Source: Gammaproteobacteria bacterium (GTDB lineage Bacteria > Pseudomonadota > Gammaproteobacteria > Thiohalobacterales > Thiohalobacteraceae). From it: a stretch of 47,798 nt of DNA. The stretch covers positions 1-47,798 of the forward strand of contig RFHK01000026.1 of NCBI GenBank assembly GCA_003695825.1, written 5' to 3'. Positions 30,934 to 33,268 of the stretch are shown piece by piece. A model generated the notes under the pieces. It was given only the letters and a program-made list of their open reading frames with translations. It did not search any database and was not told the DNA's origin. The first letter of the stretch is position 1; each line of letters begins with the position of its first letter. The position numbers and the translations under genes are program-made.

Positions 30934-31278
30934 ATGGGTGAAATACGGCAGCACCGCCTGGAAATCTACGAACCCTACGACTACGACGGCCCGAACCCGC
31001 TCCCCGTCCTGGGCAAGGGGCTGATCCGGGGCGCCAACGGGATCTTCTACTACCTGCTCGAGCGGGAGGACGGCGCCGCCATCCCGCTCGGGGACCGCCA
31101 GGTCCGCCAGCTCCTGGTCCTGCCCCGCTACGCGGGCGACCCGCCCAGCACCATGCAGGAGAACAGCTGCACGGTCAACATCGAGCTCGTGCACGACGAC
31201 GTCACGCTGCAGCCCGGCATGCCCTTCTCCTACAACGACGTGGAACACTGGGGCGTCGGCAAGATCACCCAGGCCTAG
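30934..31278 (+). CDS. Conserved-looking hypothetical protein
   Basis: A 114-residue soluble protein I cannot assign. It starts MGEIRQHRLEIYEPYDYDGPNPL, followed by a beta-rich stretch (GANGIFYYLLEREDGAAIPLGDRQVRQLLVLPRY) and CTVNIELVHDDVTLQPGMPFSYNDVEHWGVGKITQA. No signal or membrane segment. ATG 30934 follows GAGGTG by six bases. It is divergent from the DUF455 gene, possibly sharing the AT-rich promoter patch at 30851-30880. An interspersed inverted-repeat element begins at its TAG stop codon. Confidence 0.7.
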   Translation: MGEIRQHRLEIYEPYDYDGPNPLPVLGKGLIRGANGIFYYLLEREDGAAIPLGDRQVRQLLVLPRYAGDPPSTMQENSCTVNIELVHDDVTLQPGMPFSYNDVEHWGVGKITQA

Positions 31279-31349
31279 CAGCCTTCGGACTTTGGCTGGA
31301 TCTACTGCGCTCCCACCTTGCCCGCTACGATCCCCAAAGTCCGGCAGGC
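31276..31349. repeat. Interspersed inverted-repeat element, copy 2
   Basis: Starts at the stop codon TAG (31276-31278). Perfect 10-base arms CGGACTTTGG (31286-31295) and CCAAAGTCCG (31334-31343), extended imperfectly to 31281 and 31349, flank a 38-base loop. Arms and internal GGATC.ACTGCGC match the element at 24791-24868. It could act as a terminator hairpin insulating the lexA promoter 20 bases further on. Confidence 0.85.
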
Positions 31350-31368: not shown

Positions 31369-31397
31369 TTGAATGTTCTCCAAATGTTCTCTATGCT
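31369..31397 (+). promoter_or_regulatory. lexA-polymerase operon promoter
   Basis: TTGAAT (31369-31374) and TATGCT (31392-31397) are separated by exactly 17 bases. That spacer is precisely the first LexA-type box plus its two trailing bases, so bound repressor would block RNA polymerase. Confidence 0.75.
31375..31389 (+). promoter_or_regulatory. LexA-type box 1, GTTC-N7-GTTC
   Basis: Direct half-sites GTTC (31375-31378) and GTTC (31386-31389) are separated by seven bases, the form known for alphaproteobacterial LexA. It sits between the -35 and -10 of the lexA promoter. Confidence 0.75.
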
Positions 31398-31406
31398 TCG
31401 CATCGA

Positions 31407-31421
31407 GAACATTTGGAGAAC
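31407..31421 (-). promoter_or_regulatory. LexA-type box 2, GAAC-N7-GAAC
   Basis: GAAC (31407-31410) and GAAC (31418-31421) separated by seven bases are the exact inverse of box 1. It lies downstream of the predicted transcription start and overlaps the lexA ribosome binding site. Confidence 0.75.
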
Positions 31422-31427
31422 GTTTCC

Positions 31428-32021
31428 ATGCTGACCCCGACGCAACGCCGCCTGCTCGACTTCCTGGAACGCTACTGGGCCCTGCACGGCCAGGCCCCGA
31501 CCCTCGCCGAGATGGGAGAGGCGCTCGGCATTCGCTCCCGCGGCACCGTCCACCGCCACGTCCAGGCCCTGGTGGCGGCCGGCCACCTGCGCCGCATCCC
31601 CGGCCGCAAGCGCGGCCTGGCGCTCGTCCGCGGCCTGGAACACCCCGCGCTTCCCCTGCTGGGCCGCATCGCGGCTGGGCGTCCGATCGAGGCCATCCCG
31701 GACGAAGACCGCCTCGACCTGGCCGAGTTTCTGCTCGGACCGGGCCGCTTCGCCCTGCGCGTGCAGGGCGATTCCATGGTCGGTGCCGGCATTCTCGACG
31801 GCGACACCGTGGTGGTGGAAAGCTGCGAGGACGCACCGGACGGCGCCATCGTGGTCGCCCTGATCGACAACGAGGAGGCCACGCTCAAGCGCCTGCGCCA
31901 CCGCCCGGACGGCACCCTGATGCTGATCCCGGAGAACCCGGACCTGCGTCCCCTGATCTATCCCGCCCACCGGGTCCGTATCCAGGGACGGGTGGTGGGC
32001 GTGCTGCGCAGCTACGGATGA
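31428..32021 (+). CDS. lexA: LexA repressor
   Basis: LexA represses SOS genes until RecA-stimulated self-cleavage. The 197-residue protein has an N-terminal winged helix (1-65; APTLAEMGEALGIRSRGTVHRHVQALVAAGHL at 23-54) and a C-terminal S24 peptidase domain with cleavage site A83-G84 (RIAAGRPI), nucleophile S116 (GDSM) and base K154 (ATLKRL), so it should be cleavable. ATG 31428 follows GGAG; TTG 31413 would be inside the hairpin. The recognition helix SRGTVHRHVQAL has HR as I recall for alphaproteobacterial LexA, matching the box type. It overlaps the polymerase gene as ATGA. Confidence 0.95.
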   Translation: MLTPTQRRLLDFLERYWALHGQAPTLAEMGEALGIRSRGTVHRHVQALVAAGHLRRIPGRKRGLALVRGLEHPALPLLGRIAAGRPIEAIPDEDRLDLAEFLLGPGRFALRVQGDSMVGAGILDGDTVVVESCEDAPDGAIVVALIDNEEATLKRLRHRPDGTLMLIPENPDLRPLIYPAHRVRIQGRVVGVLRSYG

Positions 32022-33268
32022 ACTCCCGGCAAGCAGGCTACTGGCCGCGCGCCATCCTGCTGGTGGACATGAACGCCTTCTTCGCCTCGGTGGAACAGCA
32101 GGATCACCCGGCGCTGCGGGGCCGGCCGGTGGCCGTGACCAACGGCCTGGAAGGAACCTGCATCATCACCGCCAGCTACGAGGCCCGCGCCCATGGCATC
32201 CGGACCGGCATGCGCCTGCCCGAGGCCCGGCGCCTGTGCCCCCACTTGATCCGCCGGCCCGCGCGACCCCGGCGTTACGCCGAGATCTCTTCCCGCATCA
32301 TGCGCCTGCTGCGGGAAGAGATCACGCCGGACATCGAGGTGTTCTCGGTGGACGAGGCCTTTCTCGACCTCACCCGCTGTCAGCGCCTGCACGGTCCTCC
32401 GCCGGTGATCGCGGAGAAGGTGCGGCGGCTGATCGCCGAGCGCATCGGCCTGCCCTGTTCCATCGGCGTCTCCGGTGACAAGACCACCGCCAAGTACGCC
32501 GCCAAGCTGAAGAAGCCGAACGGGCTGACCATCATCCCGCCCTGGGAGGCCGCCGAACGACTGGCCGAGGTTCCGGTCACCGAGCTGTGCGGGATCGCAG
32601 AGGGGATCGGGCGATTCCTGGCGGCCCGGGGCGTGTTCCGCTGCGGCGACATGAAGCGGCTGCCGGTGAGCGTGCTGGGACAGCGCTTCGGGCCGCTCGG
32701 GCGCCGCCTGTGGCTCATGTGCCAGGGGCGCGATCCCGACCCCGTCCGTCCCCGGGTGCCTCCGCCCAAGAGCCTCGGTCACGGCAAGGTGCTCCCGCCG
32801 GAGACCCGCTCGCGCCGCACCCTGGTGGTCTACCTGCAGCACATGTGCGAGAAGGTCGCCGCCCGGTTGCGCCGCCACCGGCTGGAGGCCTCGCAGTTCC
32901 TGATCGCGCTCAAGACCCGCGACACCTGGCTGGGAGGGCGTTACCGCGCATCGCACCCCACGGCCCATGCACCCGACCTGCTGGCGCTCGCCCTGCGCAT
33001 GCTCCACGAGCACTGGCGGGGCGAGGGCATCTGGCAGGTGCAGGTCACGGCGCTGGATCCCGCACCCGCCCGCCTGCAACCGGACCTCTTCGAGGATCCG
33101 GACGAGGCCGGACACCGGCCGGACGCCCGGCTGGAGCCGGTGATGGATGCCGTGAACCGCCGTTTCGGAGACATGACGCTGGTGCCCGCCCGCCTGCTCG
33201 ACCGTTCGCCCATGCCGGATGTCATCGCCCCGGCCTGGAAGCCGTTCGGCCACCGCAAGACCCTCTGA
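32018..33268 (+). CDS. Y-family translesion DNA polymerase (DinB/UmuC-like)
   Basis: A 416-residue error-prone polymerase. Visible are the first metal site VDMNAFFASVEQ (D17), the fingers segment YEARAHGIRTGM, the catalytic SVDEAFLD (D112, E113), the SIGVSGDKTTAKYAAKLKKPNG thumb-adjacent motif, a little-finger domain, and a QPDLF beta-clamp-binding motif about 70 residues before the end. Length is nearer UmuC (about 420) than DinB (about 350), while the palm resembles DinB. ATGA overlap with lexA means coupled translation, so the polymerase is made with its own repressor. No UmuD or imuA partner is adjacent. Confidence 0.93.
   Translation: MNSRQAGYWPRAILLVDMNAFFASVEQQDHPALRGRPVAVTNGLEGTCIITASYEARAHGIRTGMRLPEARRLCPHLIRRPARPRRYAEISSRIMRLLREEITPDIEVFSVDEAFLDLTRCQRLHGPPPVIAEKVRRLIAERIGLPCSIGVSGDKTTAKYAAKLKKPNGLTIIPPWEAAERLAEVPVTELCGIAEGIGRFLAARGVFRCGDMKRLPVSVLGQRFGPLGRRLWLMCQGRDPDPVRPRVPPPKSLGHGKVLPPETRSRRTLVVYLQHMCEKVAARLRRHRLEASQFLIALKTRDTWLGGRYRASHPTAHAPDLLALALRMLHEHWRGEGIWQVQVTALDPAPARLQPDLFEDPDEAGHRPDARLEPVMDAVNRRFGDMTLVPARLLDRSPMPDVIAPAWKPFGHRKTL

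Follow-up and report, generated by a model that had tools for sequence, protein, structure and literature searches.

The closest functional parallels to the locus described here are LexA2 of P. putida and the imuAB-dnaE2 cassette. The lexA2-imuA-imuB-dnaE2 mutagenesis cassette of P. putida reportedly encodes a second, self-regulating LexA together with linked translesion polymerase genes, and the operator of this LexA2 is said to be GTAC-N4-GTGC.

In Alphaproteobacteria, LexA is the master SOS repressor and its SOS box is a GTTC-N7-GTTC direct repeat; ~97% of Caulobacter SOS promoters carry one box (PMC3323433, PMC12700426). The LexA of Acidobacterium capsulatum is reported to have been acquired laterally from Alphaproteobacteria (Mazon 2006, cited in PMC3323433). 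In umuDC operons and in the case of Acinetobacter UmuDAb (PMC11332147), an S24-peptidase protein is encoded with, or represses, a Y-family polymerase.

We analyzed a 47,798-nucleotide stretch of gammaproteobacterial DNA (GenBank assembly GCA_003695825.1, contig RFHK01000026.1), referred to as the window, in which the segment 31369-31421 precedes a lexA gene (lexA2) and a dinB-type polymerase gene. We conclude that this segment is very probably a promoter-operator by which a private SOS module, made up of these two genes, regulates itself. The module would share with the P. putida cassette a second self-regulating LexA, an operator of its own, and a linked translesion polymerase; the operator and the polymerase genes differ, and neither imuA nor dnaE2 lies between or beside lexA2 and the DinB-type polymerase gene, which sets the locus apart from an imuA-imuB-dnaE2 cassette. 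With alphaproteobacterial LexA, LexA2 has in common the half-site, the 11-bp direct repeat, H44-R45, and a clade apart from gammaproteobacterial LexA1, the type of the other LexA in the same assembly. It differs in having two inverted boxes and one or two target genes, and in being found in Gammaproteobacteria, beside or instead of LexA1. A. capsulatum is a likeness in that an alphaproteobacterial-type LexA and box occur outside Alphaproteobacteria, but it belongs to another phylum than the gammaproteobacterial LexA2 hosts. Unlike the umuDC and UmuDAb proteins, LexA2 combines a complete DNA-binding domain of LexA with a direct-repeat operator of the GTTC type.

Architecture of the lexA2 Promoter-Operator Region

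The features of the locus are as follows, group i denoting lexA2 loci of the window's type (38 non-redundant).

31369-31374, forward strand: -35 element TTGAAT, read in the sequence; abutment of TTG conserved in group i
31375-31391, forward strand: operator 1, GTTCTC-CAAAT-GTTCTC (GTTCTCCAAATGTTCTC), from sequence, shuffles, and cross-genome conservation
31392-31397, forward strand: -10 element TATGCT, read in the sequence; position of TA...T conserved in group i
31405-31421, reverse strand: operator 2, inverted, GAGAAC-ATTTG-GAGAAC (GAGAACATTTGGAGAAC), from sequence, shuffles, conservation, and arm complementarity
31415-31418, forward strand: Shine-Dalgarno GGAG, 9 nt 5' of the ATG and inside operator 2 (outer half-site, GGAGAAC)
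31428-32021, forward strand: lexA2, LexA-type repressor of 197 aa with its ATG at 31428, from profile matches and catalytic-residue alignment
32018-33268, forward strand: dinB-type Y-family polymerase of 416 aa, from profile matches; its start lies on the lexA2 stop (ATGA overlap)

Operator 1 is the whole 17-bp spacer between TTGAAT and TATGCT. The arrangement TTGAAT-N17-TATGCT with GTTC-N7-GTTC in the spacer, noted in an earlier sequence-only reading of this DNA, can be read directly from the coordinates; the TATGCT hexamer was not among the hits of a strict sigma-70 consensus scan. Operator 2 covers the expected transcription start (near 31403-31405) and leader, just 5' of the lexA2 ATG, and is separated from operator 1 by 13 bp (31392-31404). 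The inverted arms of the region (31372-31396 and 31400-31424) are 92% complementary. Operators 1 and 2 are the two GTTC-N7-GTTC matches of the window. Since 0.83 matches are expected by chance per shuffled window, and two or more occurred in 21 of 100 shuffles, the count of the bare pattern in 48 kb has no significance; it is the inverted arrangement and its conservation that carry it. CTGT-N8-ACAG did not occur anywhere in the window.

Upstream of lexA2 lies an ORF of 114 aa (30934-31278, forward strand) with no Pfam or NCBIfam match. A same-genus genome (L030) has the end of a closely resembling ORF upstream of lexA2 as well.

Conservation of the Double Operator

The exact double operator, in its 6-mer form, was present in 17 of 369 gammaproteobacterial genomes, once per genome, compared with 0 for the reversed-pattern control; the inverse GAAC-N7-GAAC that had been noted just past the -10 element is therefore well founded. 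A scan of 84,980 species yielded 92 stretches with the double operator, and the carriers were almost all Gammaproteobacteria, Thiodiazotropha, tubeworm symbionts, Thiogranum, Thiohalophilus, and Ectothiorhodospiraceae among them; Thiohalophilus thiocyanatoxydans (L086) and Plasticicumulans acidivorans (L095) are carriers available in culture. Among the matches listed, a LexA gene was directly downstream in 71 of 80; at L082 the stretch ends within the downstream lexA, whereas at L143 and L096 the double operator stands at dinB. The matches in Leucobacter (L081) and Bacteroidales (L099, L125, and L152) were set aside, as LexA is absent there and the sequences resemble unrelated repeats or hairpins. 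At L096 and L136, the double operator adjoins a cardiolipin-synthase-like gene, dinB of L096 being divergent on the opposite side.

LexA2 relatives collected by protein similarity from other gammaproteobacterial genomes have a promoter layout matching that of the window. Operator 1 has TTG immediately before it at 34 of the 38 non-redundant group-i loci and TA...T after it at 35 of them. The conserved unit is GTTCTC-N5-GTTCTC, an 11-bp direct repeat longer than GTTC. The search pattern itself imposed its half-site spacing, which the set collected by protein similarity shows as well, while the inner gap between the operators took values of 6-8, 10-17, and 21 bp (56 non-redundant loci). The constant spacing next to a variable gap suggests that each direct repeat is the binding unit. 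In some orthologs a single operator is recognizable (L034, L040, L042), and in others the operator has diverged (L039, L041, L053). Two of these, L040 and L053, are LexA2-type genes ~2.7 kb apart in opposite orientation (G039:C42:2360-6212), with different operators: GAGAAC-N5-GAGAAC versus a diverged TTCTC inverted repeat.

A second LexA group, group ii (for example L075, L102, L109, and L132; helix SRGSLHKHIQAL), has the same double operator. Its lexA gene is divergent from an MrfA-type helicase gene in 13 of 21 loci, and at L132 an RNase_H_2 exonuclease gene adjoins that of the helicase. From this gene order, group-ii LexA looks like a regulator of a mitomycin-repair (MrfAB-like) operon, with one operator for each of the divergent promoters.

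LexA2 and Its Relatives

LexA2 matches the LexA winged-HTH profile PF01726 with 52 bits (cut-off 23.7), the C-terminal S24 peptidase profile PF00717 with 94 bits, and TIGR00498 with 157 bits (cut-off 111). The pair A83-G84 and residues S116 and K154 align with the cleavage site A84-G85 and catalytic S119 and K156 of E. coli LexA; by this alignment, the cleavage site and Ser/Lys dyad of LexA2 are intact.

In the phylogenetic tree, LexA2 and alphaproteobacterial LexA split from gammaproteobacterial LexA1 with SH-aLRT values of 96-97. A LexA2 clade excluding the alphaproteobacterial sequences received a support of 42, and the tree accommodates alphaproteobacterial LexA either inside or beside LexA2. 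The HTH sequence of lexA2 is SRGTVHRHVQAL, with the alphaproteobacterial-type recognition-helix residues S39, H44, and R45. H44 and R45 are found in 50/51 and 48/51 group-i LexA2 proteins, respectively, in 17/17 alphaproteobacterial proteins, and in 0/16 LexA1 proteins. The marks of canonical gammaproteobacterial LexA, the CTGT-N8-ACAG operator and the N41/E44/E45-type helix, are both absent from LexA2. Judged by helix and tree, the window LexA has a predicted specificity of the alphaproteobacterial type. Gammaproteobacterial LexA2 sequences are at least as diverse as the alphaproteobacterial ones, which does not support a recent transfer from Alphaproteobacteria.

The Ordinary SOS System of the Same Assembly

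LexA1 was found in the same assembly on contig C43. Its helix, SPNAAESHL, is of the usual gammaproteobacterial N41/E44/E45 type, and its operators are CTGT-type: the lexA1 promoter has two CTGT-N8-CCAG boxes, CTGTATATAATTCCAG and CTGTACAGGTATCCAG. The box of recA (contig C132) is CTGGATATATGTCCAG, and the boxes of both genes fit CTGK-N8-MCAG. With LexA1 and these boxes present, the SOS system of the host does not appear altered: its regulon has a conventional look at lexA1 and recA, the two promoters covered, and the window LexA is the second LexA of this genome.

The assembly consists of 209 contigs, and LexA1 could be a contamination. A 30-bp interspersed repeat, CACCTTGC[TC]CGCTACGATCCCCAAAGTCCG, has 10 copies at up to three mismatches (control 0), located at 31286-31343 in the window, at G000:C43:33-62, and on eight other contigs; within the window it makes a CGGACTTTGG...CCAAAGTCCG stem. 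Being common to contigs C43 and C171 and lying upstream of both lexA genes, the repeat supports one organism as the source of both contigs, against contamination.

The discovery of LexA1 rules out the two boxes of the window as operator of the organism's main LexA. That the window gene is the lexA of a gammaproteobacterial SOS system finds no support: a separate canonical LexA1, with CTGK-N8-MCAG boxes at lexA1 and recA, is essentially what the sequence-only reading had named as refuting evidence, as far as a genome-wide change of specificity is concerned. What survives of that reading is a lineage of altered specificity, seen in the alphaproteobacterial-type boxes and helix and in the grouping with alphaproteobacterial LexA, which is not the organism's main SOS LexA.

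The Likely LexA2 Regulon

In the window, lexA2 and dinB form an ATGA-overlapping operon. A same-strand dinB comes after lexA2 at 30/48 group-i loci, and dinB also follows lexA2 on a Methylophaga plasmid. In the other 18/48 there was no dinB within the sequence covered. One of these 18 is L089, the lexA2 locus of G247, a genome with an unlinked dinB that carries the box. Unlinked lexA2 and dinB genes that both retain the operator were seen in two lineages, G247 and G240/L143 (Legionellales; the operator sequence of G240 is that of L143), and are the strongest evidence for LexA2 control of dinB.

It could be argued that the window LexA controls the whole SOS regulon through GTTC-N7-GTTC, the specificity having changed throughout the lineage, and several relatives, some of them complete genomes, do have a LexA2-type protein only. 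We consider this highly improbable. Apart from the presence of LexA1 and its boxes here, GTTC-N7-GTTC was absent from the recA promoters of all 21 genomes examined, including 13 whose only LexA is of the LexA2 type, and exact single boxes outside lexA2 and dinB were near zero; no broad regulon including recA, as under alphaproteobacterial-type LexA, was seen. In the window's own genome, allowing one or two mismatches gave 29 GTTC boxes in addition to operators 1 and 2 and three near matches, a number that does not clearly exceed the reversed control. Two of the 29, on C148, had their surroundings read, and both sit inside coding-type sequence. The regulon of LexA2 itself is thus likely to consist of lexA2 and dinB, as predicted from operator distribution.

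The recA promoters of L233, L236, L238, L240, L241, and L243 carry TAAAAAATATTGACA, which has no other exact occurrence in the respective genome. These six genomes, from four families, all lack LexA1, and the motif possibly belongs to another recA regulator.

Orientation of Operator 2

In group i, the start codon is usually 1-8 nt past operator 2, and the outer half-site there has the sequence GGAGAAC, a ribosome-binding site. The outer GAGAAC has a G before it at 29/38 group-i loci, compared with 8/38 at the equivalent place of operator 1 (P 3e-6), and GGAGAAC occurs in 30/35 loci with a start codon within 8 nt versus 10/21 with a farther start (P 0.005). The outer half-site appears to double as the Shine-Dalgarno sequence, which explains the inversion without dimer contact; supply of the ribosome-binding site is probably its main cause. 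Head-to-head contact of LexA2 dimers, as a tetramer or loop giving extra-tight repression, would account for two operators per promoter in constant inverted order in many genomes. Besides being dispensable given the overlap with the ribosome-binding site, such contact is improbable since the gap varies from 6 to 21 bp over the 56 loci, with no 10-11 bp helical phasing, making looping unlikely. The head-to-head dimers of the sequence-only reading are therefore doubtful as touching or looping partners, and plausible as two independent dimers repressing tightly.

The operator pair may also act in RNA. Read-through transcripts from upstream, which contain both arms, would fold into a long hairpin and hide GGAG, so that only transcripts begun at the lexA2 promoter are translated. 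The predicted fold of read-through RNA includes GGAG as part of its stem and reaches -47.2 kcal/mol (z -5.8), compared with -10.3 kcal/mol (z +1.2), no better than shuffles, for RNA from the predicted start. In group i, whose operator 2 holds the ribosome-binding site, mirror matches between the N5 spacers of the two operators exceed the chance level (88 against 69.7 at positions 2-5, P 0.0004; P 0.018 in a thinned set), and mirroring is not clear in the other group (P 0.14). The excess is modest, however, and template-switch correction of quasi-palindromes could yield it; an excess of G-U pairs, considered as a sign of RNA pairing, vanished under a position-keeping shuffle control, and some orthologs have only one operator. 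We regard the evidence for this second role as only suggestive and the role as rather unlikely. It is also doubtful that the 47-bp element combines a double LexA2 operator, the lexA2 ribosome-binding site, and a read-through hairpin hiding it, which would lock the polymerase both transcriptionally and translationally until damage occurs.

Discussion

The reading that we prefer, a self-regulated promoter-operator of a lexA2-dinB module, builds on direct observations: the sequence, the operon, its conservation, LexA1 with its boxes, the unlinked boxed dinB genes of relatives, and the catalytic residues. A LexA2 dimer would bind each GTTCTC-N5-GTTCTC repeat, one at operator 1 filling the -35/-10 spacer and one at operator 2 covering the start region; with both on the promoter, RNA polymerase would be excluded. 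Operator 2 would be reversed mainly because its outer half-site then provides the ribosome-binding site. Upon DNA damage, RecA filaments would stimulate self-cleavage of LexA2 at A83-G84, releasing lexA2 along with the dinB-type error-prone polymerase that is translationally coupled to it, and the remaining SOS regulon would stay under LexA1 at CTGK-N8-MCAG boxes.

A literature search that covered mostly papers outside subscription journals found no description of a lexA-dinB operon or of a lexA2-dinB group. A broad gammaproteobacterial LexA2 group that is related to alphaproteobacterial LexA, shares its operator, and would usually govern only itself and a mutagenic polymerase is apparently undescribed.

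The model in PMC8565304 (Fig. 10) deals with second LexAs whose motifs have changed: divergence of a LexA duplicate is followed by loss of the primary LexA, after which the divergent copy retakes the regulon. The genomes considered here provide a panel of such stages: both repressors in the window, LexA2 alone without control of recA in 13 genomes examined, and Alphaproteobacteria, where the series possibly ends. The ribosome-binding function of a half-site gives the operator orientation a simple reason. The boxes would be a private, conserved switch of the lexA2-dinB pair that dozens of other gammaproteobacteria have in the same form.
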